Positions 42,192-60,910 of a stretch of DNA of 64,000 bases are shown here, one piece after another. The position numbers and the translations under genes are program-made. Each line of letters opens with the position of its first letter. Position 1 is the first letter of the stretch. The notes below the pieces were generated by a model. It saw nothing but the letters and a program-made list of their open reading frames with translations, was not told the DNA's origin and ran no database searches. Location: positions 1-64,000 of the forward strand of contig MPNO01000019.1 in the NCBI GenBank assembly GCA_002239065.1, given 5' to 3'. The stretch comes from Defluviicoccus sp. bin129. Its GTDB lineage: Bacteria > Pseudomonadota > Alphaproteobacteria > MPNO01.

Positions 42192-42257
42192 ACCGGAATC
42201 GTACGGCACCGCCGGAAACGGTCTGTTTCCGCTATAGCAACCGGTGATCGATTGTTT

Positions 42258-42280: not shown

Positions 42281-42469
42281 GCAATCCGCGCCGGGAACCG
42301 TAGATTTGGCGCCCGGCCCGGACTCCGGCCCGGGCCCGTTCTTGCATGAGAGCAAGGCGCGTGGCGGCGGGATGGTCCCGCCGCCCGTCGAAGCCGCCGA
42401 CTAACGCGGCAGCACACGGCTCCGACCGCCGACAAACGCGGTCCTGCGGAGACGCCAAGAGGAGACCCC

Positions 42470-44047
42470 ATGAGCACGGCCAAGAAGGAAGCGCTCGGCG
42501 CGCCCGCCGAGGCGATCAACGATCTGCGCAATTCGCTGGAATGGCTCCAGTCGGAAGGCGATCTGATCGAGACCGACAAGGAAGTCGATCCCGATCTCGA
42601 GCTGACCGCGATCCAGAAGCAGATGGATGGCGGCTGCCCGATCCTGTTCAACAACGTCAAGGGCAAGCCCAATCACCGCCTGCTCACCAACCTGTTCGGT
42701 GACATCGAGGTGATCAACAAGATGTTCGGCTGGAGCGACAACACCGACCGCACGCGCAAGCTCGCGCATGCGCTGTCGCACCCGGTGCCGCCGGAGATCA
42801 TTCCCCAGGACCAGGCGCCCTGCCAGCAGCACGTCATCGAGAACCCGGTCGACGTGAACGAGCACATGGTGCCGATCCGCCACACCACCTACGAGCCCGA
42901 GCTCACCGTGGGGTCGGGCAACCGGGTGGTGACCGGCGAGTATTTCGACGGCGGCTCGGACCTCGGCTACAACCGGATGAACTTCCGCTGGGGCAATGTC
43001 GGCACCTTCCAGATCTCGCCCGGCTCGCATATGTGGCAGGTCGTCTCCAAGCACTACAAGGACGACAAGCCGGTGCCGATCACCATGTGCTTCGGCGTGC
43101 CGCCGTCCTGCACGCTGCTCGCGGGCGCCGGTTTCGACTACGTGATCCTGCCGCAGGGCTGCGACGAGATCGGCATCGCCGGCGCGGTGCAGGGATCGCC
43201 CGTCCGCATGGTCAAGGCGCGCACCGTGGACGCGCTGGCGCTGGCCGATTGCGAGCTGGTGCTGGAAGGCTACGTCAACCCGCGCGACCGCCGCTACGAG
43301 ACCGCCGAGGCGGAGGAGGCGGGGGTCCAGGGACGGTTCCACTTCCACCCGGAATGGGCCGGCTACATGGGCAAGGCCTACAAGGCGCCGACCTTCCACG
43401 TCACCGGCGTAACCATGCGCGACCCGGCGACCAAGCCGATCATCTTCGCGCTCGGCGTCCACACCCTCGACGACCACAACATCGACACCACGGTGCGCGA
43501 ATCCGCGATGTTCGAGCTGTGCGAGCGCATGCAGCCCGGCATCATCCAGGACTGCGTGATCCCCTACTGCATGACCGACTGGGGCGGCGCGATCATCCAG
43601 GTCAAGAAGCGCAACCGGATCGACGAGGGCTGGCAGCGCAACTTCATGTCGGCGATCCTGTCGACCTCGCAGGGCTCCAGGCTGTGCTTCGCGGTCTCCG
43701 AGGACACCGACCCCTACGACATGGACGACGTGATGTGGTGTCTGACCACAAGGGTCAACCCGCATACCGACATCCTCAACCCGATCCCGGGCGGTCGCGG
43801 CCAGACCTTCATGCCGGCCGAGCGCATGACCGCCGGCGACCGCGAATGGACGGCGTCCAACACGCGGTTCGAGGGCGGCATGGGGATCGATGCGACGGTG
43901 CCGTTCGGCTTCGAGAGCGACTTCCTCAGGCCGATCTATCCGATCGAGAAGGTCACGCTCGACGACTTCTTCACCGACGACCAGATCGCCAACGCCAAGG
44001 GCCGCATGAAGGGCTGGGTCCACTCGCTGGCGCGGACGGGGCGCTGA
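42470..44047 (+). CDS. UbiD-family prenylated-FMN decarboxylase
   Basis: A 525-residue UbiD-family protein. Seen: LRNSLEWLQSEGDLIETDKEVDPDLELTAIQKQ, NRVVTGEYFDGG, NVGTFQISPGSHMWQV, FGVPPSCTLLAGA, VKARTVDALALADCELVLEGYVNP and the late NPIPGGRGQTFMPAERM. These match the domain order with FMN-binding and the E-R-E network region, though I cannot number the residues. UbiD enzymes decarboxylate or carboxylate aromatic and acrylic acids with prenylated FMN made by UbiX; no ubiX is here. CoA ligases on both sides fit an aromatic-acid pathway. Confidence 0.9.
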   Translation: MSTAKKEALGAPAEAINDLRNSLEWLQSEGDLIETDKEVDPDLELTAIQKQMDGGCPILFNNVKGKPNHRLLTNLFGDIEVINKMFGWSDNTDRTRKLAHALSHPVPPEIIPQDQAPCQQHVIENPVDVNEHMVPIRHTTYEPELTVGSGNRVVTGEYFDGGSDLGYNRMNFRWGNVGTFQISPGSHMWQVVSKHYKDDKPVPITMCFGVPPSCTLLAGAGFDYVILPQGCDEIGIAGAVQGSPVRMVKARTVDALALADCELVLEGYVNPRDRRYETAEAEEAGVQGRFHFHPEWAGYMGKAYKAPTFHVTGVTMRDPATKPIIFALGVHTLDDHNIDTTVRESAMFELCERMQPGIIQDCVIPYCMTDWGGAIIQVKKRNRIDEGWQRNFMSAILSTSQGSRLCFAVSEDTDPYDMDDVMWCLTTRVNPHTDILNPIPGGRGQTFMPAERMTAGDREWTASNTRFEGGMGIDATVPFGFESDFLRPIYPIEKVTLDDFFTDDQIANAKGRMKGWVHSLARTGR

Positions 44048-44357
44048 TCGGGAGTTCGGCAGCGGGCCTGGACGCCGCACCAAAGAGAAGGAACCTCGGT
44101 CCTCTCTCCGGGCGGCGTCCCCTCCCCGGGCGAGAACGGGTGCAGAACTGGTAGCGTTTCTGCGGGCGTCGCCACTCCTCGACGCCGATTTCACCGTGAC
44201 ACGCGATAGGTCTCCGGGACGGTCGGTCGATCTCGAATGACGGGTTTCCCGATTGGCGACAACCCATTCGGCGCCTCCGTCGAACCGCGGCCCGTACTTC
44301 TGTGGCGATTTGGGGTGCGATCATGGCCGGGGGAGACCGGGCCCGCCGGCGCGCATC
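44048..44357. other. Intergenic stretch between convergent ubiD and CoA ligase genes
   Basis: No gene is supported in this 310-base stretch. Its first part holds the long hairpin described separately; the rest is GC-rich with short runs of mixed composition and no clear promoter or open frame with a start signal. Frames open here run antisense to the neighbouring ligase gene. Confidence 0.6.
44070..44120. terminator. Long bipartite hairpin after ubiD
   Basis: GGACGCCGC (44070-44078) pairs perfectly with GCGGCGTCC (44112-44120). Inside, AGAG-A-AGGA (44084-44092) pairs with TCCT-CTCT (44100-44107) with one bulged A, around loop ACCTCGG. The sequence then continues CCTCCCC with no T-tract, so it may stop transcription only weakly or stabilise the ubiD transcript. 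Confidence 0.45.
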
Positions 44358-45938
44358 TCACCCCTCGCGCAGGCGGAAGCGCTGGATCTTTCCGGTCACC
44401 GTCTTGGGCAGCGTGTCGACGAAGTTGAACCAGCGCGGGTACTTGTAGCGGGCGAGCGCTTCCCGGCAATGGGTCTTGAGCTCGTCCTCGAGCGCGGCGC
44501 CGGCATCGCCCGCATCGTTGAGCACGATATTCGCCTCGGGCTTGATCAGCCCGTCGTCGTCGGCGCGCCCGACGACCGCCGCCTCCAGCACCTTGGGATG
44601 CTCGATCAGCCGGGCCTCGATCTCGAACGGCGAGCACCACAGCCCGCCGACCTTGATCATGTCGTCGCCGCGCCCGCAATTGATGAAATAGCCGTCCGCG
44701 TCCTGGTAGTACATGTCGCCGGTATTCAGCCAGTCGTCGCCGAGCATGGTCGCGGCGGTCTTCTCGGGATTGTTCCAGTAGAGCTTCGCGGCCGACTCGC
44801 CCTGCACCAGCAGCGTGCCGATCTCGCCCTCGGGCACGTCCCCGCCGGCCTCGTCGACCAGGCGCACGCCGTAGCCCGGCACCGGGCGGCCGGACGAGCC
44901 GGGTTTCCAGTCATCCTCGGTGTTGGACACGAAGATGTGCAGCATCTCGGTCGAGCCGAGCCCGTCGAGGATCAGCGTCCCGGTCTTGTCCTTCCAGCGC
45001 AGCATCACGTCGCCCGGCAGCGCCTCGCCGGCCGAGATGCAGATCCGGATGGACGTGAGGTCCGGGCTCGCCTGCTCCATCGCGTGGAGTTGCTGCGCGT
45101 ACATCGTCGGCACGCCGAAGAACACGGTGGGGCGCAGCGCCTCGATCGCCTCGAAGGTCATCTGCGGCGTCGGCCTGCGGTCGCTCAACCCGATCGTGGC
45201 GCCGACCCAGAGCGGAAACGTCATCGCGTTGCCGAAACCGTAGGAGTGGAACAGCTTGCTCACCGAGAACACGGTGTCGTCCGCGCGGAGCCCGGCGATC
45301 ATGCGGCCGTAGCGCTCGCTGGTGCAGACCATGTCGCGGTGGTGGTGGACGACGCCCTTGGGATTCCCGGTCGAGCCGGAGGAGTAGAGCCAGAAACACT
45401 CGTCCATCGCCGTCGTCGGCGCCGGGTCGAGCGCGGCGGATGCCGCCGCCGCCTTCTCCGCAAGCCCGCCGTCGCCGTCGACCCGGAGGATGGTCGGCGG
45501 CTTGTTCCCGACGGATCGGAGCCCCGCCTCGACCGCCTCGGCCCATTCGCGGCTGTAGACGATGCCGGCGCAACCCGAATCCTCGATCAGGAACGCGTAG
45601 TCCTGCGGCCGCATCATCGTGTTGACCGGGACCGGGACGATCCCCGCCTTGACGGCGCCGAAGAAGCAGAACACGAACTCGGGGCAGTCCTTGACCACCA
45701 TCAGCACGCGGTCGCCGCGGCGGATCCCCGCGCCGAGCAGCGCATTGCCGGTGCGCGCGACCTGTTCGGCAAGCACCCGGTAGCTGGTCTCGCCGTCCGC
45801 GGTGCGGATCGCGGCCTTGTCGCCGCGGCCTTCCTCGAGATGCCGGTCGATGAACGGGATGGCGGCGTTGAAGACGTCGGAAAAGACCAGCCGCGCCGGC
45901 GCCGCGGTCTCGTCGACAGATACGGTGTTGTCCCTCAC
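44358..45938 (-). CDS. Benzoate-CoA ligase family protein
   Basis: A 526-residue aryl-CoA ligase close to benzoate/4-hydroxybenzoate-CoA ligases. A3 motif LYSSGSTGNPKGVVHHH (from residue 185), A5 LDGLGSTEMLHIFVSN, hinge-like NCGRGDDMIKVGGLWCSPFEIE and the catalytic K517 in TGKIQRFRLRE. SSGSTGxPKG with a VxHHH end is the benzoate-CoA ligase form. It turns an aromatic acid into its CoA thioester at ATP cost. It is divergent from the molybdenum hydroxylase operon, with 265 bases between. Confidence 0.92.
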   Translation of the reverse strand: MRDNTVSVDETAAPARLVFSDVFNAAIPFIDRHLEEGRGDKAAIRTADGETSYRVLAEQVARTGNALLGAGIRRGDRVLMVVKDCPEFVFCFFGAVKAGIVPVPVNTMMRPQDYAFLIEDSGCAGIVYSREWAEAVEAGLRSVGNKPPTILRVDGDGGLAEKAAAASAALDPAPTTAMDECFWLYSSGSTGNPKGVVHHHRDMVCTSERYGRMIAGLRADDTVFSVSKLFHSYGFGNAMTFPLWVGATIGLSDRRPTPQMTFEAIEALRPTVFFGVPTMYAQQLHAMEQASPDLTSIRICISAGEALPGDVMLRWKDKTGTLILDGLGSTEMLHIFVSNTEDDWKPGSSGRPVPGYGVRLVDEAGGDVPEGEIGTLLVQGESAAKLYWNNPEKTAATMLGDDWLNTGDMYYQDADGYFINCGRGDDMIKVGGLWCSPFEIEARLIEHPKVLEAAVVGRADDDGLIKPEANIVLNDAGDAGAALEDELKTHCREALARYKYPRWFNFVDTLPKTVTGKIQRFRLREG

Positions 45939-46203: not shown

Positions 46204-49176
46204 ATGAGTCAGACCCAGGAAAAATACGTCGGCCAGTCGATCGACCGGGTCGAGGACGCGGCGCTGCTGACCGGCAGCGCGATGTTCTCGGACCACCTGC
46301 CGACCCGAAGCGGAACTCTGCACGCCGCGATCCTGCGCTCGCCCCACGCCCATGCCGAGATCGCCGCGATCGACGTCTCCCGCGCCCGGGCGATGCCGGG
46401 CGTCGCCGCCGTCCTGACCGGCGAGGACGTGAAGGATATCTCGGATCCCTTCCTGATCGTCCTGCGCCAGCCGATCCTCCAATGGGCGCTCGCCGTGGGC
46501 AAGGTCCGCTATGTGGGCGAGCCGGTCGTCGTCGCCCTCGCGACGGACCGGTACCGGGCCGAGGACGCGCTGTCCGCGGTCGAGATCGCCTACAGGACGC
46601 TCGAACCCGCCGTCGACCCCGAGGCCGCGACGGAAGAGGGCGCGCCCCTGGTCCACGAGGCGGTGGGCTCGAACATCGTCTCGGTCCGCGACTTCGCCTA
46701 CGGCGACCCGGATGCGGCGTTCGCGGAAGCGGACCGGGTGGTGAAGCTCAAGATCTCCTACCCGCGCAACTCGCACACCCCGCTCGAGGGCTTCGTCGCC
46801 TCGGTGGCCTATGACGCGGCGACCGAGTCCTACGACGTGCAGTCCAACTTCCAGGGCCCGTACTCGACGCACACGGTGATCTCGAAGGCGCTCCGCGTCT
46901 CCAGCTCCAGGCTCAGGATGCGCACCCCGGCCTTCTCCGGCGGCGGGTTCGGGGTGAAGGTCCAAGTCTTTCCCTATATCGTCCTGATGGGCGCCGCGTC
47001 GAAGATCGTCGGGCGTCCGGTCAAATGGGTCGAGGATCGGCTCGAACATCTGAGCGGGGCGGCCGCGGCGCCCAACCGGGTGATCTCGATCGAGGCCGCG
47101 GTCAAGAACGACGGCACGATCACCGGCTTCCGGTTCGACCAGCTCGACGATTACGGCGCCTTCCTGCGCGCGCCCATGCCGGGGCCGCTCTATCGCATGC
47201 ACGGCATCCTGACCGGCGCCTATGACGTGAAGAACCTGGCCGTCACCAACCGGCTGGTGCTGACCAACAAATGCCCGTCGGGGATGATCCGCGGGTTCGG
47301 CGGACCGCAGATGTACTACGCCATCGAGCGCCTGGTGCAGCGGATCGCCGTCGAGCTCGAGCTCGACCATTACGAGGTGATCCGCAAGAACCTCGTCCCG
47401 GCCGGCGTCTTTCCCTACCGCGCGGCGGCGGGCGCCTTGCTCGATTCCGGCGACTATCCGGCGGCGCTTGAGAAAGCGGAGAAGGAAGGCAAGCTGGCGG
47501 AGCTCAGGAAACGCCGCGACGAGGCCCGCGCGGAAGGCCGGCTCTACGGCATCGGCTTTGCCGCGATCGTCGAGCCGGCGCAGTCCAATATGGGCTATCT
47601 CTCGAACATCCTGCCGCTCGAGGAGCGCCGGAAGAACCCCAAGGGCGGCGCGGTCTCCAACGCCACGGTCAATATCGACCCGCTGGGGACGGTCAACGTG
47701 ACCGCCGATTCGATCCCGCAGGGCCAGGGCCACATGACGGTGCTGTCGCAGATCGTCGCCGACAATCTGGGGCTCAAGCCGGGCGACATCCACGTCAACC
47801 TGGAGCACGACACCGCGAAGGACGCCTGGTCGATCGCGACCGGCAACTATTCCTCGCGCTTCACCTCGTCGACCGCGGTCGCCGCCGACCGGGCGGCCAA
47901 GAAGGCGCGCGCCAAGCTCGCCAGGATCGCCAGCCAGACGCTCAACGTGCCGGCGGACAGGCTCGAATTCGGCAACGGCAAGATCTACGCCGCCGACAAT
48001 CCCGACAACGCCGTCAACCTCTACCGCGTGGCGGGATCGGCGCATTGGACGCCCGGCAATTTGCCGGACGACATGGAGCCCGGGATCCGCGAGATCGGCT
48101 CCTGGTCGCCGCCCGAGCTGGAGCCGCCCAACGACAAGGACCAGATCAACTCCTCGCTGACCTACGGCTTCGTGTTCGATTTTTGCGGCGTCGAGATCGA
48201 CCGCGATACCGGCGCGGTGAAGATCGACAAATACGTGACGATGCACGATTCGGGCACGTTGCTGAACCCCAGGCTCGCCGAGGGGCAGGTGCATGGCGCC
48301 TTCGCCTGGGCGGTGGGCTGCGCGCTCCATGAGGAGTTCGCCTATGGCGAAGACGGCAGCTTCCTCAACGGCACTTTCGCCGATTACCTGGTGCCGACCG
48401 CCTGGGAGGTGCCGGAACCCCAGATCGTCCACATGGAGACGCCGTCGCTGGTCACCCCGCTCGGTGCCAAGGGCGTGGGCGAGGGCAACTGCATGTCGAC
48501 GCCGGTCTGCATCGCCAACGCGGTGTGCGACGCGCTCGGGATCGAGAACGTCACCCTGCCGCTCAGCCCCAACAAGGTGTCCGCGCTGATCCACGGCGAG
48601 GAGCGGCCGCCGCCGGACGGCGCGGAGGCCCCCTCGGCCGCACGCGAGGTTGCGGGGAATGTCATCGCCGGAGCCGGCGAGGCGTTCGTGAAGTCCCCGC
48701 CCGGGGAGGTCTGGGCGGCCCTGCTCGATCCGGAAAAGCTCGCCTCGGTCATCCCCGGCTGCCACGCGCTGGAGCGGGTGGACGAGAACGACTACCGCGC
48801 CGAGGTCTCGATCGGCGCGGGCCCGGTCAAGGGCCGCTTCAAGGCGAATGTCAGGTTGAGCGACCTGGATCCGCCCAACGCGGCGACGCTCACGGGCGCG
48901 CTTACCGGGATGCTCGGACTCTCGGAAGGCAGCGGGCGGGTGACGCTCGCGCCGAAGGACGGCGGCACGGCGCTCTCCTACGATTACCGGATCGAGGTCT
49001 CGGGCACCGTGGCGGCGGTCGGCGGGCGCATGCTCGAAGGCGCCGCCCGCGCGCTGGTGCGCCAGTTCTTCGAGCGTTTCGCCACGGTGCTGGGCGGCGG
49101 CGAGGTCGCGGTGGCGGACGAGGCGGCCCCGTCGTGGTGGACACGGCTGCTGGCCGCTTTGGGGATCGGCCGATGA
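46204..49176 (+). CDS. Molybdenum hydroxylase large subunit fused to C-terminal CoxG domain
   Basis: A 990-residue protein. Residues 1-790 are a xanthine-oxidase-type Mo subunit: VGQSIDRVEDAALLTG, PVEDRLEH-like KWVEDRLEHL, M361-IRGFGGPQ and the catalytic Glu E760 in GAKGVGEGNCMSTP. The AYRCSFR motif that marks true CO dehydrogenase is absent. Residues about 815-970 are a SRPBCC/CoxG domain (AFVKSPPGEVWAALLDPEKLASVIPGCHALE and onwards), normally a separate protein that docks the cofactor-bearing subunits. The C-terminus ends in an amphipathic SWWTRLLAALGIGR tail. It is the first gene of an eight-gene operon. Substrate is unknown, likely an aromatic or N-heterocyclic acid. Confidence 0.9.
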   Translation: MSQTQEKYVGQSIDRVEDAALLTGSAMFSDHLPTRSGTLHAAILRSPHAHAEIAAIDVSRARAMPGVAAVLTGEDVKDISDPFLIVLRQPILQWALAVGKVRYVGEPVVVALATDRYRAEDALSAVEIAYRTLEPAVDPEAATEEGAPLVHEAVGSNIVSVRDFAYGDPDAAFAEADRVVKLKISYPRNSHTPLEGFVASVAYDAATESYDVQSNFQGPYSTHTVISKALRVSSSRLRMRTPAFSGGGFGVKVQVFPYIVLMGAASKIVGRPVKWVEDRLEHLSGAAAAPNRVISIEAAVKNDGTITGFRFDQLDDYGAFLRAPMPGPLYRMHGILTGAYDVKNLAVTNRLVLTNKCPSGMIRGFGGPQMYYAIERLVQRIAVELELDHYEVIRKNLVPAGVFPYRAAAGALLDSGDYPAALEKAEKEGKLAELRKRRDEARAEGRLYGIGFAAIVEPAQSNMGYLSNILPLEERRKNPKGGAVSNATVNIDPLGTVNVTADSIPQGQGHMTVLSQIVADNLGLKPGDIHVNLEHDTAKDAWSIATGNYSSRFTSSTAVAADRAAKKARAKLARIASQTLNVPADRLEFGNGKIYAADNPDNAVNLYRVAGSAHWTPGNLPDDMEPGIREIGSWSPPELEPPNDKDQINSSLTYGFVFDFCGVEIDRDTGAVKIDKYVTMHDSGTLLNPRLAEGQVHGAFAWAVGCALHEEFAYGEDGSFLNGTFADYLVPTAWEVPEPQIVHMETPSLVTPLGAKGVGEGNCMSTPVCIANAVCDALGIENVTLPLSPNKVSALIHGEERPPPDGAEAPSAAREVAGNVIAGAGEAFVKSPPGEVWAALLDPEKLASVIPGCHALERVDENDYRAEVSIGAGPVKGRFKANVRLSDLDPPNAATLTGALTGMLGLSEGSGRVTLAPKDGGTALSYDYRIEVSGTVAAVGGRMLEGAARALVRQFFERFATVLGGGEVAVADEAAPSWWTRLLAALGIGR

Positions 49177-50000
49177 AGCCGAGCCCGTTCGACTACATCC
49201 GCGCCGCCTCCGCCGAGGAGGCGCTCGACGGTCTCGCCGCCCATGGCGAGGATGCCCGCATCCTCGCCGGCGGGCTCTCGTTGGTGCCGATGCTCAACTT
49301 CCGCCTCGTCGAACCGGCGATGGTGATCGACATCTCCGGCATCGGGGCGCTCGACTACATCCGCCTCGACAACGGCGCGGTGGAGATCGGCGCGGCGACC
49401 CGCCAGAGCGCGCTCGAACGCTGGGACGGGATCGCCGACAGGCTGCCGCTGGTGCATGCGGCGTTTCCCCATATCGGGCATTACCAGACCCGCAGCCGGG
49501 GAACCGTGTGCGGCTCGGTCGCCCATTCGGATCCGAGCTCGGAGCTGCCGCTCTGCCTGGCCGTGCTGGGCGGTGAGGCGGTGCTGCGCTCGGCCGCCGG
49601 CGAGCGCCGCGTCGCCGCCAGCGACTTCCAGACCGGGATGCTGACCACGGCGAAGCGCGACGACGAGATGGTGGCGGCCGTGCGCTTTCCGGTGGCGGAG
49701 CCCGGAAGCGGCTACGCGTTCGCCGAGATGGCCCAGCGGCGCGGCGATTTCGCCATCGTGGCCCTCGCCGCTTCCGCGTCCGGCGAGCGGGTCCGGCTCG
49801 GTGTCGGCGGCGTCGCCGACCACCCGACGGTGCGCCAATGGGACGGGCTGGCGGGCGGTGCGCTCGACGACGCGCTGAACGCCTTCGCCTGGGAGCTCGG
49901 CGGCTATGACGACGTGCACGCGACCGCGCGCTATCGCCGCGAGCTGGTCCGCCGGCTGGGCAGGAAAGTCATCGAGGAGGCCAGGTCATGCCGCAGCTGA
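49173..50000 (+). CDS. Molybdenum hydroxylase FAD-binding subunit (CoxM-like)
   Basis: A 275-residue FAD subunit. Seen: FDYIRAASAEEALDGLAAHGEDARILAGGLSLVPMLNFRLV, where AGGxSLxPMxNxR binds FAD diphosphate, then GTVCGSVAHSDPSSELP (second FAD motif; usual GG is CG here), and a C-terminal FAIVALAASA region. It relays electrons from the 2Fe-2S subunit to the final acceptor. The start overlaps the large-subunit stop as ATGA, and the next gene overlaps this one by 13 bases, so the trio is coupled. Confidence 0.93.
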   Translation: MKPSPFDYIRAASAEEALDGLAAHGEDARILAGGLSLVPMLNFRLVEPAMVIDISGIGALDYIRLDNGAVEIGAATRQSALERWDGIADRLPLVHAAFPHIGHYQTRSRGTVCGSVAHSDPSSELPLCLAVLGGEAVLRSAAGERRVAASDFQTGMLTTAKRDDEMVAAVRFPVAEPGSGYAFAEMAQRRGDFAIVALAASASGERVRLGVGGVADHPTVRQWDGLAGGALDDALNAFAWELGGYDDVHATARYRRELVRRLGRKVIEEARSCRS

Positions 50001-50479
50001 ACCGGGATACGCGGCACGCCATCTCCTTCACCCTCAACGGCAAGCCGGCCCAGGGCCATGCGGAGCCGCGCATGCTGCTGTCGGACTTCCTGGTCCACGA
50101 GCTCGGCCTGACCAGCGTCCATGTCGGCTGCGAGCACGGCGTGTGCGGCGCCTGCACGGTGCGCATCGACGGGGCCGTGGGCCGGGCCTGCCTCACCTTC
50201 GCGGTGCAGGTCGACGGCAAGAAGGTGGATACGGTCGAGAGCCTGACCCCCGAAGAGGGCGGCCTCAACGAGCTCCAGAAGTCCTTCCGCAGCAACCACG
50301 GGCTGCAATGCGGGTACTGCACGCCCGGCATCCTGATGTCGCTGAGCGCCTATCTGGAAGAGAACCCGAAGCCGAGCGAGGACGAGCTGCGCGACATGCT
50401 GAGCGGCCATCTCTGCCGCTGCACCGGCTATGTCAACATAGTCCGCGCGGTGATGGAGCATGTCGGCAACGCGCCCTAG
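49988..50479 (+). CDS. Molybdenum hydroxylase 2Fe-2S subunit (CoxS-like)
   Basis: A 163-residue protein with both clusters of the family: a plant-ferredoxin-like set C48-x4-C53-x2-C56-x11-C68, and a C-terminal all-helical set C108-x2-C111 with C143-x1-C145 in HLCRCTGY. It passes electrons from molybdopterin to FAD. The N-terminus ISFTLNGKPAQGHAEPRMLLSDFLVHELGLTSVHVGCEHGVCGACT is normal. It ends nine bases before the PLP gene. Confidence 0.95.
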   Translation: MPQLNRDTRHAISFTLNGKPAQGHAEPRMLLSDFLVHELGLTSVHVGCEHGVCGACTVRIDGAVGRACLTFAVQVDGKKVDTVESLTPEEGGLNELQKSFRSNHGLQCGYCTPGILMSLSAYLEENPKPSEDELRDMLSGHLCRCTGYVNIVRAVMEHVGNAP

Positions 50480-50488
50480 CCCCCGGCG

Positions 50489-51997
50489 GTGCCGGCCGTG
50501 ACCGGCGCAGCGCTGCCGACCGCGATCGAGGACCGGGCGGCCTATGACAGCGCGGTCCGCCATCTGCGCGACGCGCGGGTGGTGCTGCCGACCTTCGCGG
50601 AGCTCGCGGACCCCGCGGCGATCCCGGCCGACATCGCGTCCCGGACCGCGCGCGTCGACCGCGACGCGGCCGATCCCTGCAACCTCTTCCGGGTGCACTG
50701 GTTCAACGACATCGAGACCGGCGGCATCCGGCCGGTGCCGCCGCATGTCGTGCTGCCCCGGTCGCTGACCGGGGTCGATGCGCCGATCGCGGTTGCGCTC
50801 GGCAACAGCTTCCCGATGATCGGCGCGCACAAGGTGCTCGCCGCCTATGCCTGCCTGGTCTGGCGGCTGGTCACCGGCCGTTTCGACCCGGCCCGCCACA
50901 AGGCGGTGTGGCCGTCGACCGGCAACTACTGCCGGGGCGGGGTCGCGATCTCGCGCATCATGGGGGTGCGCGGCGTGGCGGTGCTGCCGGAAGGGATGAG
51001 CGCCGAGCGGTTCGACTGGCTGCGGCAATGGATCGAGCACCCGGACGACATCGTCCGCACCCCGGGCTCGGAGAGCAACGTCAAGGAAATCTACGACGCC
51101 TGCGACGAGCTGGAGCGGGACCCGGCCAACGCGATCCTCAACCAGTTCTCGGAATTCGCCAACTATCTCGGCCATTACCGGTGCACGGGACCGGCGCTCG
51201 AGGCGGTCTACACGCATCTCCGCGGCGCCGAGCCCGAGCTGGCGCTCGCCGCCTTCGTCGCCGGCACCGGTTCGGGCGGCACGCTCGGCGCGGGAGACCA
51301 TCTCAAGCAAGCGCAGGGCGCGCGGATCGTCGCCGTCGAGCCGCTCGAATGCCCGACCATGCTCTATAACGGCTACGGTGCCCACAACATCCAGGGGATC
51401 GGCGACAAGCACATCCCGCTGATCCAGAACGTGATGAACACCGATGCCGTGGTCGGCGTCTCGGACCGCAATTGCGACCGGCTGAACGCGCTCTTCAACA
51501 CCGAGGTGGGACGCGCCCATCTCGCCGGAAAATGCGGCGTCGATGAGGGGATTGTCGCCGGCCTCGCGGATTTCGGCCTGTCGTCGATCGCCAACGTGCT
51601 GGCGTCGATAAAGTTCGCCAGGCACCACGGCCTCGGGCCGAACGACCTGATCGTGACGGTCGCGACCGACGGGGCCTCGATGTATGACAGCGAGCGGGCG
51701 AAGACCGTCGATGCCGAGTTCGCGGGCGCGTATGACGGGGTCGCGGCGGCGGAGACCTTCGGCCGGGATCTCGCGGCGATCGGCACCGACCATGTGCTGG
51801 AAACCGGCCGGGCGGAGCGGACGCGGATTTTCAATCTCGGCTATTTTACCTGGGTCGAGCAGCGCGGCGTGGAGCTTGCGGCGTTCGACCGACGCCGCGA
51901 CCAGGGTTTCTGGACCGGGCTCCACGATGCGCTGCCGCTGTGGGACGAGATGATCCGGGCGTTCAACGCCGAGACCGGCGTCAACCGGCCGGGCTGA
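50489..51997 (+). CDS. CysK-like fold-type II PLP enzyme
   Basis: A 502-residue PLP enzyme of the cysteine synthase/cystathionine beta-synthase family. PLP Lys is K115 in [21 protein letters not shown] phosphate and substrate loops are [14 protein letters not shown] and [12 protein letters not shown]. The C-terminal region (about 400-500) is longer than CysK and has no family I recognise. It may be a beta-eliminase or beta-replacing lyase acting on an amino acid from the pathway. It starts with GTG; another GTG lies nine bases later. It is close to both neighbours, in the same operon. Confidence 0.8.
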
Positions 51998-52009
51998 GGA
52001 GGGGACGAG

Positions 52010-52963
52010 GTGACCAAGCCCTACGCCGATCTCAGGCGCGAGACCGAGACGCGGGACCGCAGCCTGCGCGAGAAGGTGATGTCGCTGGAAGAGGCCGCGG
52101 CGCTGGTCGATGACGGCGATCACGTCGCGCTCGGCGGCTGCACGCTGTCGCGCACGCCGATGGCGATGATCTGGGCGCTGATCCGGGCGCGCAAGAAGGA
52201 CCTCGTGGTGTCGCGCAGCATCACCTCGACCGAGGGCGATCTGCTCTACGGTTCGGGCGCCAGCAGGCACGTGATGACCAGCTGGTTCTCCCAGGGCATC
52301 GTCTGGGGCGTCTCCAGGGTGATGCGCCATTACACCGAGACCGGACGGGCGATCTTCGAGGAGTGGAGCCACATGGCGATGGGCGTCCGCTACCGCGCCG
52401 GCGCGATGGGGGTGCCGTTCATCCCGGTGCGCAGCATGCTGGGCTCCGACCTGACCGGGCGGATCGACGGGCCGAAGGAGATGGCGTGCCCGTTTACCGG
52501 GGACAGGCTGCTGCTGGTGCCCGCGCTCAACCCCGATGTCGCGCTGATCCACGTGCAGCGCTGCGACGCCTACGGCAACGCGCAGATGGACGGGCTTCCC
52601 TTCATGGACGCCGATATCGCGATGGCCGCCAACCGGGTCATCCTGACCACCGAGCGCATCGTCTCCAACAGCCAGATCCGCCGCGCCCCCGACCGCACGC
52701 GGATTCCGTTCATCACCGTCGATGCGGTGGTCGAGGCGCCCTATGGCTGCGCGCCGCACGAATGCTACGGCGTGTATGAGCCGTTCCTCCCCAATCTGGA
52801 CGCCTATGCGGCGCTGATCGGCCGCGACGCCGAGGCCGGGGTGAAGGAATATCTCGAGCGCTACGTCTACCAACCCAGGGACTGGGTCGCCTATCTCGAT
52901 CTCCTCGGGATGGACAACGTGATCGACGCGGCCCGGCGCGGCAGGAGCGTCTACAATGACTGA
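52010..52963 (+). CDS. CoA-transferase subunit A (GctA/IpdA-like)
   Basis: A 317-residue family I CoA-transferase alpha subunit. Seen: SLEEAAALVDDGDHVALGGCTLSRTPMAMIWALIRARKKDL, and a later MGVPFIPVRSMLGSDL, FTGDRLLLVPALNPDVALIHVQRCDAYGNAQ. Its pair is the next gene. The family makes CoA esters with acetyl-CoA, succinyl-CoA or glutaconyl-CoA donors, but IpdAB relatives hydrolyse a ring of a CoA thioester instead. It begins with GTG twelve bases after the PLP gene and overlaps the B gene by eight bases. Confidence 0.9.
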   Translation: MTKPYADLRRETETRDRSLREKVMSLEEAAALVDDGDHVALGGCTLSRTPMAMIWALIRARKKDLVVSRSITSTEGDLLYGSGASRHVMTSWFSQGIVWGVSRVMRHYTETGRAIFEEWSHMAMGVRYRAGAMGVPFIPVRSMLGSDLTGRIDGPKEMACPFTGDRLLLVPALNPDVALIHVQRCDAYGNAQMDGLPFMDADIAMAANRVILTTERIVSNSQIRRAPDRTRIPFITVDAVVEAPYGCAPHECYGVYEPFLPNLDAYAALIGRDAEAGVKEYLERYVYQPRDWVAYLDLLGMDNVIDAARRGRSVYND

Positions 52964-53726
52964 CAACGGATCCCACAGCGCTGCCGAACTCCTCGCGGTG
53001 ATGAGCAGCCGTTCGCTGGAGGACGGGCAGACCGTCTTCGCCGGGGTCGGCATCCCCCTGCTCGCCGCGACGCTCGCCCAGCGCATCCATGCCCCGGGGC
53101 TGACAATCCTGTTCGAGGGCGGCGTGCTGGGGCCGTTCATCGTCCCGGGCGAGCTGCCGCCGTCGACCAACGAGCAGCGCTGCACGCGGCAGGCCAACAT
53201 GGTGCTGTCGAACACCGATGTTCTGCTGCTCCTGCAGCGGGGCTATGTCGATATCGGTTTCATGGGCGGCGCCCAGATCGACCGCTACGGCAACCTCAAC
53301 AGCTCGTATATCGGCGACGCGGAGAACCCGAAGATCCGCCTGCCCGGGACCGGCGGCGGCAACGACATCGCGAGCCTGACCCGGATGATCGTGTCGATGA
53401 TCCACGAGAAGCGGCGCTTCGTGGAGGCCGTCGACTTCGTGACGTCGACCGGCTACTGGCACGGCGGCACGTCGCGCAGCGATTCGGGGCTGACCACGGG
53501 CGGGCCCTACCGGGTGATCACCGATCTCGCCGTGCTCGGCTTCGACGAGGAAACCAGGCGGATGAAGGTCGAGGCCCTGCATGACGGCGTCGAGCCGGAC
53601 CAGGTGCAGGACGCGACCGGGTTCGAGCTGATGTTCGACGACGAGATCGGCCGGACCGAGCCGCCGACGGCGGACGAGCTGGCGGTGCTGCGCGAGATGG
53701 ACCCGGACCGGGTCTATATCGCCTGA
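52956..53726 (+). CDS. CoA-transferase subunit B (GctB/IpdB-like)
   Basis: A 256-residue beta subunit. The probable catalytic Glu is E54 in ILFEGGVLGPFI, equivalent to the Glu that carries CoA in family I transferases (usually ENG or EGG context). Other features: FAGVGIPLLAATLAQR at the start and FMGGAQIDRYGNLNSSYIGD in the middle, with GTGGGNDIASL. Either CoA transfer or ring hydrolysis of a CoA ester is possible. It is followed 37 bases later by the luciferase-like gene. Confidence 0.9.
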   Translation: MTDNGSHSAAELLAVMSSRSLEDGQTVFAGVGIPLLAATLAQRIHAPGLTILFEGGVLGPFIVPGELPPSTNEQRCTRQANMVLSNTDVLLLLQRGYVDIGFMGGAQIDRYGNLNSSYIGDAENPKIRLPGTGGGNDIASLTRMIVSMIHEKRRFVEAVDFVTSTGYWHGGTSRSDSGLTTGGPYRVITDLAVLGFDEETRRMKVEALHDGVEPDQVQDATGFELMFDDEIGRTEPPTADELAVLREMDPDRVYIA

Positions 53727-53763
53727 GCCGGGCGCACCGGGAACCGGAAGACTGGGGAGAGAC

Positions 53764-54708
53764 ATGGGCAGCAAGATCGTCGGCATAGCGATGCAGAATT
53801 TTACCGCCGCGCCGGAGATGCCGGATCCGCAGGGGCTGATCGACTACGCGGTGCGCATGGAGGAGCTGGGCTACGAATCGGTCTGGGTCTGGGACCATGT
53901 CCTGCTCGGCGTCGACCCCCATTTCCCGATCCTCGACTCGCTCACCGTGCTCACGGCGGTCGCGGCGCGGACCAGCGAGATCCGCATCGGCACCGGAATC
54001 CTCGTCCTCCCCTCGCGCAACCCGGTGGTGCTCGCCAAGCAGCTCTCCAGCCTCGACCAGATTTCGAACGGACGGCTCACCCTCGGCATGGCGTCCGGCT
54101 GGTACAAGCGCGAGTTCGACGCCATGGGGGTGCCGTTCAACAAGCGCGGCAACATCATGGACCAGAACCTGGAGATCCTGACCCGCCTGTTCACCGAGGA
54201 CTCGGTGACCGGCAACTACCCGCCCTACGAGCTGCGCGAGGCCGTGATGTCGCCCAAGCCGGTGCAGAAGCCGCGCCCGCCGATCCTGATCGGCGGCTAT
54301 GTCGACCGGGTGCTGAAGCGCGCCGCCCTCGCCGGCGACGGCTGGCTCACCTACTACTACACCGTCGAGGGTTTCGTGAAATCCTGGGACAAGGTGCGCC
54401 GCTTCGCCGAGGAGGGCGGCAAGGACCCCGACACACTCAAGAGCATCAACCAGCTGCCGATCATGCTGGGCTCGTCGCGCGCCGCGGTCGAGAAGCCGAT
54501 GTATGAGTGGCTGACCACCGAATGGGATTTCGCCGGCTGGAGCGATTCGACCACCGAGAGCGCGGTGCTCGGCACGGCGGAGGAGTGCATCGAGCAGCTC
54601 CGCGCCCATCTCGACGCCGGGGTGCAGCAGATCACCCTGGTGCCCTATCGCTTCGACACGGAGCAGATCGCCCGGATCGCCGAGGAAATCCTGCCGGAGA
54701 TCGGCTGA
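53764..54708 (+). CDS. LLM-class flavin-dependent oxidoreductase
   Basis: A 314-residue TIM-barrel flavoenzyme of the luciferase-like monooxygenase class. Seen: YESVWVWDHVLLG, GTGILVLPSRNPVVLAKQLSSLDQISNGRLTLGMASGWYKREFDAMG and PPILIGGYVDRVLKRAALAGDGWL. Such enzymes use FMNH2 or F420; the F420 group shares this MEELGYESVWVxDH start. Roles include oxygenation of C-H, C-S and N-containing compounds. Nothing in the sequence tells F420 from FMN. GGGGAGAG precedes the ATG. Confidence 0.9.
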   Translation: MGSKIVGIAMQNFTAAPEMPDPQGLIDYAVRMEELGYESVWVWDHVLLGVDPHFPILDSLTVLTAVAARTSEIRIGTGILVLPSRNPVVLAKQLSSLDQISNGRLTLGMASGWYKREFDAMGVPFNKRGNIMDQNLEILTRLFTEDSVTGNYPPYELREAVMSPKPVQKPRPPILIGGYVDRVLKRAALAGDGWLTYYYTVEGFVKSWDKVRRFAEEGGKDPDTLKSINQLPIMLGSSRAAVEKPMYEWLTTEWDFAGWSDSTTESAVLGTAEECIEQLRAHLDAGVQQITLVPYRFDTEQIARIAEEILPEIG

Positions 54709-54724
54709 GGCGGGGAGACGCGCC

Positions 54725-56215
54725 GTGGCGGCGGCTGGAGAATTCGCGCTCCCCGAAACCACCATCGCCGACATTCACGCGGCGTTTCGCGCGGGCGCGC
54801 TGACGGCGCGGGCTCTGGTCGAGTCCTATCTCGACCGCATCGAGGCCTATGACCGGAACGGACCGGCGATCAATTCGATCGTCTCCGTCAACCCCGCCGC
54901 TCTGGACGACGCCGCCCGGCTGGATGCGGCCTTCGAGCGGGACGGCCCGGTCGGCAAGCTGCACGGCATCCCGGTGATCGTGAAGGACCAGGCCGATGTC
55001 GCGGGCATGCCGACGACGATGGGCTCGGTGCTGTTCAGGGACCATCATCCGGGGCGCGACTGCTTCGTCGCCTCGCGGCTCAGGCAGGCGGGGGCGATCC
55101 TGATCGCCAAGTCCACGCTGGGCGAGATGGGCGCGGGCGACACCCACGGCTCGCTGTTCGGCTCGACGCGCAACGTCTACGACCTGGACCGCACCGCGGG
55201 CGGCTCGTCGGGCGGTTCGGGCGCGGCGGTGTCCGCCAATTTCGCCGCCGTCGCCATCGGCCAGGAGGGGTTCGCCTCGATCCGCCGGCCGGCGGCGTGG
55301 AACGGGGTCGTCGGCATGCGCCCGACCGCCGGTCTGGTCAGCCGGGGCGGCGTCTATGCCGGCTGGCCGATGATCAACGGCTCGCTCGGGCCGATGTGCC
55401 GTACGGTCGCCGATGCCGCGCGGCTCCTCGACGTCATGGTGGGCTACGACCCGGCCGACCCGGTCACCGCGCGCGGCGTCGGCCAGGTGCCGGAAAGCTA
55501 CGCCGCCGGGCTCGATGCGGACGGGCTGAAGGGCGCGCGCATCGGAATCCTGCGCCAGCCGATGGGTTTCGCGAGCGAACCGGAGTCCGGGGACTTCGCC
55601 AGGGTGGACGCCGTGTTCTCCCGCGCGGTTGAAGACCTCGCCGCCTGCGGCGCGGACATCGTCGACCCGGTTTCCGTTCCCGATCTCGTCGAGCTGCTCG
55701 CCACGCGGGTGAACGACCGGGCGGAGGAGGACGCGTCGTTCCGCGAATACGTCTCGGGGCTCGCCGACCCGCCGTTTTCCTCGCGTGACGAGGCGATGGC
55801 ATCGCCCCTGTTCGCCGAGACCAGCCGCGGCGTGCGCGTGCGCTGGGCCGCCGATGCGGGCGCCGAGGCGCATCGCGCCTTCCTCGCGGCGCGCGAACGG
55901 CTGATGACCAACCTGCTGGCCGTCATGGCCGACCACCGGCTCGACGCCATCGTCCACAAGGCGGTGGAGCACCAGCCGACCCTGATCGAGGACGGCGTCA
56001 ACCCGCCCTTCGTCGACCAGAAGGGCGCGCCCTGGCTCAACACCTTTGTGATCTTCGTGCCCTCGATCGTGGTGCCCGGGGGATTCACCTCGGACGGGCT
56101 GCCGGCCGGCATCACCTTTCTCGGCCGCGGCTACGACGACGCGCGGATGATCCGCTACGCCCATGCCTACGAGCAGGCGACGCGGCATCGCAGGCCGCCG
56201 GCGTCAGCTCCCTAG
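54725..56215 (+). CDS. Amidase signature enzyme
   Basis: A 496-residue amidase with the Ser-cisSer-Lys set: K87 in VIVKDQADVAG, S161 in TAGGSSGGS, and S185 in FASIRRPA. The region between them reads AAVAIGQEGFASIRRPA, while typical enzymes have GTDxGGSIRxPA, so the oxyanion hole may differ. It hydrolyses amides or C-N bonds of unknown substrate. It starts with GTG 16 bases after the luciferase-like gene and closes the operon. Its 3' end overlaps the TRAP permease gene on the other strand by 12 bases. Confidence 0.9.
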   Translation: MAAAGEFALPETTIADIHAAFRAGALTARALVESYLDRIEAYDRNGPAINSIVSVNPAALDDAARLDAAFERDGPVGKLHGIPVIVKDQADVAGMPTTMGSVLFRDHHPGRDCFVASRLRQAGAILIAKSTLGEMGAGDTHGSLFGSTRNVYDLDRTAGGSSGGSGAAVSANFAAVAIGQEGFASIRRPAAWNGVVGMRPTAGLVSRGGVYAGWPMINGSLGPMCRTVADAARLLDVMVGYDPADPVTARGVGQVPESYAAGLDADGLKGARIGILRQPMGFASEPESGDFARVDAVFSRAVEDLAACGADIVDPVSVPDLVELLATRVNDRAEEDASFREYVSGLADPPFSSRDEAMASPLFAETSRGVRVRWAADAGAEAHRAFLAARERLMTNLLAVMADHRLDAIVHKAVEHQPTLIEDGVNPPFVDQKGAPWLNTFVIFVPSIVVPGGFTSDGLPAGITFLGRGYDDARMIRYAHAYEQATRHRRPPASAP

Positions 56216-58573
56216 GGCGGTTTCGCCCGTTTCCCGCTTTCTGCGCGTGCTGAAGCCGTGCCAGGCGATCCACAGCGCCGCCACGGCGATGGCGGGTCCG
56301 TAGACCGCGCTGTCGGTGGAAATCACCAGGCCCGCGAGAACCAGCCGGAGCCCGGTTTCCCAGAGCGGCAGCCCCGCCCGGTCGAACCGCGCGAGCGCGC
56401 TGGCGAGCAGGAAGAGCGCGAACACGAGGCGCAGCAGCAGCCACAACAGCGGCCACAGCGCGACGGTGCCGTCGTAACCGGCCAGATAGGCGATTTCGCC
56501 GCCGGTCGATTTGGGGTCCACGACCGCCGGTTCGATCAGCAGCAGCTCGGGATAGACCGCGAAGACGAACGGGATGACGAAGATGACGATGCCCGAGCGC
56601 ACCGCGGAGAACCCGGTCGCCATGGGTTCCGCCTTGGTGATCGAGGCCGCCGCGAAGGCGGCGAGCGCCACCGGCGGCGTGATCGCCGAGGCCACCGCGA
56701 AGTAGAAGATGAACATGTGGGCGGTGAAGATCGAGATGCCGAGCCCGGCGAGCACCGGTCCCATCAGCAGGGCGACGTTGATATAGGCCGGCACCGCCGG
56801 CATCCCCATGCCGAGCAGCACCGCCAGCAGCATGGTCATCCCGAGCGCCATGAACTGGAAGATCACCGAGCCGCCCGCCCCCAGGTTGAGGCTCTGCAGC
56901 CACTGCAGCACGTCGAGCGAGATGAAGAAGGGAAGGCCGGTCAGCTTGAGGCAGAAATCGATGATCGAAACCGCCAGGAACATCAGATAGAGGGTGGAAA
57001 TCAGGATTCCCGCGTCCGAGAACGCATCGAGCAGCTTGCGCGGCCGCACCCGCATTTCCGGATCGAGGAAGAGGAGGACGCAGAGGAGCGCGACCGCCCA
57101 CCACCCGGCGCTTCCGGCGTCGCCCGCCGCGTTCTGCAACAGCTTGAGGAACCACGGAAGCTCGGAGACCCTGCACACCCCGTCGGCGAACACGCGCTCG
57201 GCACCGAGCAGCCCGTCGAACCAGCCGCAGCCGACATTCTCCTTGGAGGTGAGCAGCAGGAACAGGATCACCAGGATGGGCCCGAAGATCATCATCAGGT
57301 TGTAGATGTCCTGGCGCGACAGGTGCATCTCCGCGGTCATCTCGCCGAAGGCCTCGATCTTCTGCTTCCGCGACTGGAAGATCGCCGACAGGAACAGGCA
57401 CAGGAAATAGGCGATCGCCGGGATCGCGGCGGCGACGATCACGTCGCTGTAGGGCACCGCGGTAAGCGCGGCGAGCACGAAGGCCGCGACCCCCATCACC
57501 GGCGGCATGATCGAGCCGCCCGACGAGGCGGCGGCCTCCATCCCGCCGGCGAAGGTCGGAGAAAAACCGCGCCTGATCATCATCGGAATGGTGAGCACCC
57601 CGGTCGACAGCACGTTGACGATGGGCCCGCCCGAGATCGTCCCGAACATGGCGGACGAGACGATGGCGGCGTGCGCGGGCCCGCCCCGGAGACGCCGTGT
57701 CCAGCGGAAGGCGAGCTTGATCAGCGACCTGCCGCCCGCCGATGCGCCGAACAGCGAGCCCAGGATCAGATAGGGGAAGATCTCGTTGAGGATGATGTCG
57801 ATGAAACGGCCGAGCAGGCCGGACGCGTTGTTGGTCAGGATGTCATGGACCCGCGGCCGTCCGTCCCACAGCGAGCGCGGGTCGCCGCCGAGCTTGGTCA
57901 CGAGGTACTTGTCCATGCCCTCGGGACCGAAGAGATACCAGATGAGGACGGTGCCGATGGTGTAGGCCGCGATCAGGATCGCGACCAGGACCAGGGGAAA
58001 TCCCCAGACCTTGACGTTGTAGGACAGGAACACGACGATGGCGAGGCCGACAATGGCCACGATCCAGCCCTCGGTGGTGTTCAGGCATTGCGGATCCTCG
58101 ACCGTCTCGGGCTCGGGCAGGCCGAAGATCGCGGCGTTCTCCTTCTCGATCTTCATGGCCTCGGCGAACAGCCGGGCCCGGTCTCCGGTGAGCTGGTCGA
58201 TCAGGCAAACCGACTCGACCTCGACGATGTAGGTCAGCGAGATGCCGATCGCCATGGCCACCAGCGCGAGGTCCATGAACAGGCCGAAGCCGCGGCGCAG
58301 ACCGCTCTTGCCGGCCCAGCTGCGCCACATCGAGTGGTGCAGCGCGACCGTCAGCATCATCAGGGAGAAAAAGAACGGGTAGTAGTACTCGAACGGGAAC
58401 TTGCGGATGATGAAGCGGGGATCGCCGGTGACGTCCCTGACCCAGTCGTCGAGGCCGGGGATTCCCGGCATCGCGTTGACCAGGCCGATCAGGACCAGGG
58501 AGATCGACAGGAAGTAGACGACGCGTTTACCGAATCCCCGGTCGACGGCGCGCGGGATTTCGGGGTCCGTCAC
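56204..58573 (-). CDS. TRAP transporter fused permease (DctQM, TAXI type)
   Basis: A 789-residue fused small/large permease. The N-terminal part (about 18-235) has several helices (VVYFLSISLVLIGLV, YYYPFFFSLMMLTVALHH and others) and an extra loop with Cys at CLIDQLTGDRA and QCLNTTEG. The DctM part has GSLFGASAGG, SSAMFGTISGGPIVNVLSTG, EAAASSGGSIMPPVMG, VLLGMGMPAVPAYINVALL and FIFYFAVASAITPPVALAAF. TAXI systems usually carry organic acids such as glutamate. It is downstream of two TAXI binding-protein genes on the same strand. Confidence 0.93.
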   Translation of the reverse strand: MTDPEIPRAVDRGFGKRVVYFLSISLVLIGLVNAMPGIPGLDDWVRDVTGDPRFIIRKFPFEYYYPFFFSLMMLTVALHHSMWRSWAGKSGLRRGFGLFMDLALVAMAIGISLTYIVEVESVCLIDQLTGDRARLFAEAMKIEKENAAIFGLPEPETVEDPQCLNTTEGWIVAIVGLAIVVFLSYNVKVWGFPLVLVAILIAAYTIGTVLIWYLFGPEGMDKYLVTKLGGDPRSLWDGRPRVHDILTNNASGLLGRFIDIILNEIFPYLILGSLFGASAGGRSLIKLAFRWTRRLRGGPAHAAIVSSAMFGTISGGPIVNVLSTGVLTIPMMIRRGFSPTFAGGMEAAASSGGSIMPPVMGVAAFVLAALTAVPYSDVIVAAAIPAIAYFLCLFLSAIFQSRKQKIEAFGEMTAEMHLSRQDIYNLMMIFGPILVILFLLLTSKENVGCGWFDGLLGAERVFADGVCRVSELPWFLKLLQNAAGDAGSAGWWAVALLCVLLFLDPEMRVRPRKLLDAFSDAGILISTLYLMFLAVSIIDFCLKLTGLPFFISLDVLQWLQSLNLGAGGSVIFQFMALGMTMLLAVLLGMGMPAVPAYINVALLMGPVLAGLGISIFTAHMFIFYFAVASAITPPVALAAFAAASITKAEPMATGFSAVRSGIVIFVIPFVFAVYPELLLIEPAVVDPKSTGGEIAYLAGYDGTVALWPLLWLLLRLVFALFLLASALARFDRAGLPLWETGLRLVLAGLVISTDSAVYGPAIAVAALWIAWHGFSTRRKRETGETALGS

Positions 58574-58639
58574 GTCGGTCGTTTCCCGCTGCGAAGACGA
58601 AGGCCGCGGGAGACCCGCGGCCCTTCCGGTCGGTCCCGG

Positions 58640-59686
58640 CTACGGCCTGGCGCAGTCGGGGATCTTTTGGCCCGCTTCCTCCCAGGCCGCCACCGCGCCG
58701 GGGTGGTACTTCACCGGCACCGGTCCGCACAGGCCGGTCTTCGCCGGGTCGGTGGTGCCGATACCTATATTGGCCATATAGGGCGCCTTCGTCGTGAAGG
58801 CTTTCACGTTGGAAATCGCCACCTCGGTCAGCGCCTTGGCAAGCTTGAAATCCATCGACATGTGGACCATGTCGGCGCCCGCCGTCGCCGGGCTGCGCCA
58901 GACGCCGTCTTCCGAAACCACCGTCAGCCCCTTCAGCGGCTTGACGGTCTTCAGGTCGATGACCCAGGGCGCGATCCCGGGCGCCTTGAGATATTTCTGC
59001 ATGCCCTCGGAGTTCCACGCCTTCGTCGGCACCGACCATGCGGTCATGCTCCCCGAGCCCAGGGAGCGGACGATCCGGGAATCCGGGAAGGTGATCGGCA
59101 GCACCATCGCGTCGCCGGTGCCGTCGGTGATGGTCTTCACCATCTGGCCCCAGTTGGACTGCCGGCCCTTGTAGTCCTTGCCGTCCGAATAGCCGGTCAC
59201 CAGCCTGACCAGGGCACGGGCGATGCTCAGCGCGGCGCCGCGCGGCGGGCCGTTGACGATCGTCTTGCCCTCTATGTCCTTCCAGCCTTTGACGGGGGAG
59301 CTGTCATAGGCGTAGAGGGCGTAGCCGCCATAGAGATAGGTGTAGAGCACCGCCGTGTTGGCGGCGAGCTCCGCGCCCTTCTCTTTGCCCAGCTTCGCGT
59401 AAGGCCCGGCTCCCTTCGACAGCAGGAAGGGCAGAATGAGCGGGACCGCCGCCACGTCCGTCTTGCCCTGGGCCACGTTTTGCAGCGAGTTGGTCAGGGT
59501 CTGGCCCTCGGCGATCTGGAAATTGGCGACGCCCGCCCGCGCGGCGAGCTCGCCGAGGGTGGTCACCGCTCCGTGGGGTACGCCGCCCGCAGGGCCGGTT
59601 TCCGCGGTCAGGTTTACCTGGGCACTGGCCGATGCGCCGAACGCGAGGGCCGCCGCCAAGGCTGGCAAAGCGAGTTTTCCGGACAT
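58640..59686 (-). CDS. TAXI-family TRAP substrate-binding protein, copy 1
   Basis: A 348-residue periplasmic protein with a signal peptide (MSGKLALPALAAALAFGASASA, cleavage at ASA-Q). TAXI-family features: FQIAEGQTLTNSLQNVAQGKTDVAAVPLILPFLLSKG, VLYTYLYGGYALYAY, GKTIVNGPPRGAALS and a final GPVPVKYHPGAVAAWEEAG. Copy 2 immediately upstream has the same length and about three quarters identical residues by eye, so this is a recent tandem duplication. The two may differ in ligand or expression. The permease follows 66 bases downstream. Confidence 0.92.
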   Translation of the reverse strand: MSGKLALPALAAALAFGASASAQVNLTAETGPAGGVPHGAVTTLGELAARAGVANFQIAEGQTLTNSLQNVAQGKTDVAAVPLILPFLLSKGAGPYAKLGKEKGAELAANTAVLYTYLYGGYALYAYDSSPVKGWKDIEGKTIVNGPPRGAALSIARALVRLVTGYSDGKDYKGRQSNWGQMVKTITDGTGDAMVLPITFPDSRIVRSLGSGSMTAWSVPTKAWNSEGMQKYLKAPGIAPWVIDLKTVKPLKGLTVVSEDGVWRSPATAGADMVHMSMDFKLAKALTEVAISNVKAFTTKAPYMANIGIGTTDPAKTGLCGPVPVKYHPGAVAAWEEAGQKIPDCARP

Positions 59687-59743
59687 TGAACCTTCCTGTC
59701 TCGTCGTTTCGGGGTTTCGCCGCCCCAACGGGGAGCGCCGGGG

Positions 59744-60790: not shown

Positions 60791-60910
60791 GGTTCCTCCC
60801 TGTGTTTCCCTCTTGCCGGGCGACCGACCGGCGGCATTGTATCGACGAGTCTTCGGCATGGGAATTTCCCGGTTCGAGCGGGAGCGCCGCAGCGAAACCG
60901 GCGGTTGCCG

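Follow-up and report, generated by a model that had tools for sequence, protein, structure and literature searches.

A four-gene unit linked to cofactor F420 within a predicted catabolic operon of Defluviicoccus

Comparison of sequence and gene order across genomes marks four adjacent genes in Defluviicoccus sp. bin129 as a conserved core, encoding a PLP enzyme, the two subunits of a CoA-transferase (CoaA and CoaB) and a luciferase-like (LLM-class) oxidoreductase, and a molybdenum (Mo) hydroxylase and an amidase as its exchangeable partners. This core module appears in many proteobacteria, almost only in those whose genomes indicate an ability to make F420. Somewhat better than an even chance is given here to a reading in which the whole is a catabolic operon, built on the four-gene unit working with F420 and directed at a nitrogen-bearing acid. 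The main interest lies in the F420-linked core, not in the list of eight genes.

Operon layout and the core module

The operon lies in the window, meaning the whole 64,000-nucleotide stretch analyzed (contig MPNO01000019.1, positions 1 to 64,000). The original prediction described eight plus-strand genes at 46204-56215 with short gaps and overlaps; all of these open reading frames were found at those limits, and the families assigned to them were borne out by Pfam and NCBIfam. The operon and its flanking genes are as follows.

42470..44047, plus strand: UbiD-family decarboxylase (PF01977/20695/20696), upstream of the operon
44358..45938, minus strand: benzoate-CoA-ligase-family protein (TIGR02262, 603 bits against a cut-off of 375), divergent from the operon
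46204..49176, plus strand: Mo hydroxylase large subunit, CoxL/aldehyde oxidase type, with a C-terminal CoxG domain (Pfam MoCoBD_1/2, Ald_Xan_dh_C, COXG)
49173..50000, plus strand: Mo hydroxylase FAD subunit (PF00941, PF03450)
49988..50479, plus strand: Mo hydroxylase [2Fe-2S] subunit (PF00111, PF01799; eight cysteines)
50489..51997, plus strand: fold type II PLP enzyme, a distant CysK relative with a C-terminal extension (PF00291); core gene 1
52010..52963, plus strand: class I CoA-transferase subunit A (CoaA), glutaconate CoA-transferase type (PF01144); core gene 2
52956..53726, plus strand: class I CoA-transferase subunit B (CoaB), with catalytic Glu (PF01144); core gene 3
53764..54708, plus strand: LLM-class oxidoreductase (PF00296) of the F420-dependent family TIGR03619; core gene 4
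54725..56215, plus strand: amidase-signature hydrolase (PF01425, 270 bits)
56204..60859, minus strand: TRAP permease (DctM) and two TAXI-type binding proteins (NMT1_3), convergent with the operon; candidate importer

Overlaps join the large and FAD subunits (4 bases, ATGA), the FAD and [2Fe-2S] subunits (13 bases) and CoaA and CoaB (8 bases), and the gaps are 9 bases from the [2Fe-2S] subunit to the PLP gene, 12 from there to CoaA, 37 from CoaB to the LLM gene and 16 from there to the amidase. A low-power scan inside the operon found neither promoter-like sites nor plus-strand terminator-like sites, and spacing and synteny suggest co-transcription of all eight genes. The CoxG domain of the large subunit (residues 825-963), on which the original prediction was silent, is fused elsewhere in a comparable operon: it sits on the large subunit in the window (46204-49176) and on the Fe-S subunit in L056 (L056:3755-4975).

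Three further Defluviicoccus MAGs (L016, L017 and L018, the Mo gene of L016 being truncated by the contig end) keep all eight genes in the same order at 86-97% protein identity, more than chance would give. The synteny search originally suggested was thus positive, and the view of the genes as one catabolic operon is supported. Among the loci compared, the complete set of eight was found in Defluviicoccus only.

A wider picture comes from scanning the PLP protein against one genome per species (84,980 species), which gave 254 relatives; the best 80 were taken together with as much as 10 kb of flanking sequence, and neighbors were counted from tblastn maps. CoaA stands behind the PLP gene in 23 of these 80 loci (the module loci, as opposed to the other 57 PLP loci), and the order PLP-CoaA-CoaB-LLM on one strand is kept in all 21 module loci not cut by a contig end. 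Hosts are mostly Alpha-, Beta- and Gammaproteobacteria, with one Vicinamibacteria MAG (L043), and outside Defluviicoccus the module shows about 57-87% identity. A maximum-likelihood tree of the PLP protein places the module rows almost in a single group (29 rows, 24 from modules and 5 others; support 90/86), in which the window groups with Defluviicoccus. Because an LLM orthologue was found in just 1 of 399 genomes drawn evenly from the phylum (Pseudomonadota), that of the window itself, the module is evidently rare.

The partners vary. A Mo hydroxylase lies within 10 kb of only about 9 of the 23 module loci, and the amidase accompanies the module in Defluviicoccus only; neighbors elsewhere include a different CoxL-type Mo hydroxylase, Liv/Urt-type ABC transporters, L-serine ammonia-lyase, PxpA/PxpC-type proteins and GntR regulators. 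The eight genes hence cannot be treated as one equal set, as had been proposed: genes 4-7 form the core, around which Mo hydroxylase and amidase come and go. It can also be envisioned that two or more unrelated units simply lie together here, namely a Mo hydroxylase, a PLP/CoA/F420 module and a stray amidase; in other genomes, Mo and amidase genes of the window type do not belong to the module. This appears unlikely, given the gene overlaps and the identical order in four Defluviicoccus genomes, and given that the Mo hydroxylase accompanying the module in other lineages is a different enzyme of CoxL type, giving the impression of independent recruitment.

The LLM oxidoreductase and cofactor F420

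The fourth core protein scores 201.5 bits against TIGR03619, an F420-dependent family with a cut-off of 166.9. No studied member of this family is known from Proteobacteria. Its AlphaFold2 model (AF2, pLDDT 86) is equally close in fold to FMN and F420 enzymes, and fold alone does not separate them.

Genes for F420 biosynthesis (FbiC, CofC, CofD, CofE, NpdG) lie within 10 kb of 8 of the 23 module loci, versus none of the 57 other PLP loci (Fisher p 1.7e-5). On the same contig they occur at 10 of the 23 module loci only, L049 and L076 adding cofE there; the window contig has none. At the level of whole genomes, cofE is present in 21 of the 23 module genomes, versus 57 of 385 genomes passing the cofE cut-off in an evenly drawn sample of the class Alphaproteobacteria (Fisher p about 1e-14; these are raw genome counts with kinship ignored) and 4 of 399 in the even draw of the phylum. 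The two exceptions are L091, with FbiC pieces, and L043, with weaker CofH-like matches only. Five module genomes happened to be in the class draw (G000, G007, G060, G200 and G229), all with cofE, the module of G007 being a contig-edge fragment. L087 is a particularly compact case, a MAG that may be incomplete: a single LLM gene was detected in the genome, that of the module, in one gene cluster with NpdG-CofE-CofD-CofC-FbiC, and a search of the same MAG found no FDOR-A.

The genome of the window (G000) carries a complete F420 cluster, FbiC-NpdG-CofE-CofD-CofC, on another contig (C15), together with about 49 LLM (PF00296) genes and an FDOR-A gene. It is an F420-rich alphaproteobacterium, and with so many candidate users, F420 there serves many enzymes and is not dedicated to the operon.

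The enzyme was originally taken for an oxygenase, which it probably is not. An oxygenative pathway would make the LLM an FMN-dependent two-component monooxygenase, with the F420 association a by-product of lineage, and FMN monooxygenases are indeed among its closest structures by fold, LuxA-type chains ranking high by profile. Such a pathway is nevertheless improbable, since the protein passes the cut-off of an F420-family model, F420 genes adjoin eight module loci and no comparison locus, cofE is in nearly all module genomes versus 15% of genomes in the class and 1% in the phylum, and the operon is without a flavin reductase gene. Family and genome context together point to F420 use by the LLM, and we regard a catabolic operon with an F420-using LLM as very probable.

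Partner enzymes, flanking genes and relatives of the PLP protein

The best PDB matches of CoaA and CoaB are the two chains of glutaconate CoA-transferase GctAB (1poi_A, E 5e-44; 1poi_B, E 4e-45). These are the closest solved relatives and share with CoaAB the two-subunit make-up and the catalytic Glu; CoaAB differs in sitting with an F420-LLM and a PLP enzyme. CoaB FEGG aligns with VESG of 1poi_B, and Glu54 is invariant in 21 of 21 CoaB sequences. What had been called a transferase or hydrolase can thus be narrowed to a true class I transferase, with PF01144 in both subunits. The CoA-transferase fold also occurs in IpdAB and AibAB, which lack the transferase Glu; a ring hydrolase of that kind was rejected, as CoaB keeps it.

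The Mo large subunit has the loop SGMIRGFGGPQ (RGFGGPQ at 363-369) and a conserved Glu in GAKGVGEG near 757, the glutamate typical of molybdenum hydroxylases. By these features the hydroxylase assignment stands. Aerobic CO dehydrogenase (CoxL form I) was rejected: there is no AYRCSFR-type Cys loop, and TIGR02416 gives 448 bits against a cut-off of 991. The subunit falls below all NCBIfam equivalog cut-offs. In the amidase, motifs for a candidate Ser-cisSer-Lys triad are present (VIVKD, GGSSGG, ASIRRP).

The association of the operon with UbiD and the divergent CoA ligase, suggested at the outset, holds within Defluviicoccus, where L017 and L018 keep both in place, and not beyond it; both are accordingly dispensable for the core, and a link between UbiD and the operon is possible. 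Between these genomes UbiD is 98-99% identical, versus 86-89% for the Mo, FAD, PLP and amidase genes, so UbiD is either under stronger constraint or recently moved. The adjoining stretch of the window at 36765-45938, with an HpaB-type hydroxylase, an acyl-CoA ligase (40599-42191), UbiD and the benzoate-CoA-ligase-family gene, is likely aromatic-acid catabolic. Downstream of the operon, the TRAP/TAXI order is the same in L016 and L017, and L018 has the permease too.

The known Hmf gene set for furoate and furandicarboxylate comprises UbiD, an acyl-CoA ligase and a three-subunit Mo hydroxylase, and these three families adjoin in the window too, in an order kept in L017 and L018 (a likeness at the level of gene content). 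In an Hmf-like catabolism UbiD would decarboxylate, the ligase activate and the Mo enzyme hydroxylate an acyl-CoA, the remaining genes hydrolyzing or processing the product. This is quite unlikely: the window adds a PLP enzyme, a CoA-transferase, an F420-LLM and an amidase, the PLP enzyme, amidase and F420 link are left without a use, the core module elsewhere is mostly without UbiD or CoA ligase, and the Mo subunit passes no equivalog cut-off.

The PLP enzyme (502 aa) shares with CysK and CBS its fold type II, the PLP lysine and the Asn and phosphate loops, and differs from them by N- and C-terminal additions. K115, STGN (143-146) and GSxGT (261-265), corresponding to lysine, asparagine loop and phosphate loop, are invariant in 48 of 48 sequences. 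The AF2 model (pLDDT 93) has CysK/CBS as its nearest folds, with extra segments, and the fold search gave no sharper function. Cysteine synthase A was rejected (89 bits against the cysK/cysKM cut-off of 351), as was diaminopropionate ammonia-lyase (YgeX), for want of a match to TIGR01747 or TIGR03528. In a few MAGs the PLP gene has one in-frame stop codon (L020:5766-7244, L085:10001-11470 and L006), reflecting a degraded gene or an assembly error.

More can be learned from the company that relatives of this enzyme keep. In a second group of 42 PLP loci, mostly from Acidimicrobiia, the family stands beside a threonine-synthase-like PLP protein; many of these loci also carry a Se-dependent-XDH-like enzyme, SsnA, YgfK, a carbamoyltransferase, a carbamate kinase or another LLM, a gene content that matches the reductive urate pathway. 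A third, small group (L048 and L085) has neighbor proteins matching the diaminopropionate ammonia-lyase models TIGR01747/TIGR03528. Judging by these urate-type clusters and ammonia-lyase neighbors, small diamino or ureido amino acids are the probable substrates of the PLP family.

Seventeen clusters of the reductive urate type contain the PLP family of the window (L023, L025, L029, L031, L034, L038, L045, L050, L057, L062, L068, L072, L073, L082, L083, L086 and L093). They have a Se-dependent-XDH-like enzyme and SsnA, often with YgfK, carbamoyltransferase, carbamate kinase or LLM, and in the place expected for YgeX they usually have a threonine-synthase-like PLP protein; most are from Acidimicrobiia, with Rhodoplanes, Acidobacteria and Planctomycetota also represented. 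This may represent a final step of the pathway that has not been described.

The reductive urate pathway has the set XdhD-YgfK-SsnA-HyuA-YgeW-YgeY-YgeX, and in Chloroflexota a putative F420-LLM has been proposed as its purine-ring reductase (PMC12507026). The window operon is alike in combining a Mo hydroxylase-type enzyme, a reductase (the putative F420-LLM in Chloroflexota) and a PF00291 PLP enzyme. That it is itself a variant of this urate or purine pathway is nonetheless very doubtful, even with PLP relatives in SeXDH/SsnA/YgfK clusters and an F420-LLM yanthine reductase proposed for Chloroflexota (PMC12507026): none of the 23 module loci, flanks of at most 10 kb included, contains SsnA, hydantoinase/carbamoylase or carbamoyltransferase, the Mo enzyme belongs to the CoxL and not the XdhD type, the module LLM is only 24% identical to the LLM of urate-type clusters, and CoaAB, like the amidase of the window, has no counterpart in that pathway. 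The urate pathway proper was rejected, its genes being missing (SsnA in 0 of 23 module loci); near the window operon there is no SsnA, HyuA, YgeW, YgeY or YgeX, nor another ring-opening amidohydrolase of the SsnA/HyuA type.

A possible pathway and the use of F420 in Proteobacteria

The analogy with the urate-type clusters of its PLP relatives suggests that the window operon, too, may break down a nitrogen-bearing ring or lactam acid reductively. Among nitrogen-bearing acids, a heteroaromatic acid or a lactam would be the likeliest substrate. The original prediction of a nitrogen-bearing ring or an amide-linked aromatic acid is thus plausible in its nitrogen, helped by the urate-type relatives, and more conjectural in its aromatic part. 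In the order of reactions that we infer, the TRAP/TAXI system would import the substrate, and the Mo enzyme would hydroxylate a C-H bond next to the ring nitrogen. With F420H2, the LLM would then reduce either the ring that results or a C=C or C=N bond, and the amidase would open the amide or lactam, as PxpA/PxpC-type genes might, at a guess, in relatives. The CoA-transferase would activate the freed acid, and the PLP enzyme would use beta-elimination or beta-replacement to deal with a three-carbon amino-acid unit set free in the process; in some relatives the module is followed by a gene for L-serine ammonia-lyase. Aromatic acids may enter the pathway through UbiD and the CoA ligase. Such a reductive nitrogen-ring or lactam route has, in our estimate, not quite an even chance.

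As the original prediction had it, no described pathway with this exact gene set was found in the open-access literature searched, which on F420 catabolic pathways in Proteobacteria gave only an F420 review and the urate papers. According to that 2021 review, Actinobacteria were the only bacteria in which F420-dependent enzymes had been studied, and the reason why Proteobacteria synthesize F420 was listed as unanswered (PMC8498797). Most F420 in Proteobacteria is not explained by the module, which about 5 of the 58 F420-positive genomes of the class sample carry. We put forward tentatively, at clearly less than even odds, that the module represents an undescribed F420H2-dependent degradation of N-heterocyclic or lactam acids, spread horizontally in Proteobacteria and the main or only reason for F420 in several of them. 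Cultured hosts are Azospirillum canadense DS2, Cupriavidus yeoncheonensis LMG 31506 and Rhodospirillaceae SYSU D60014. The module supplies a genetically linked candidate enzyme and pathway and, since it recurs almost only in F420-capable hosts, a testable answer to what F420 may be used for in some proteobacteria.
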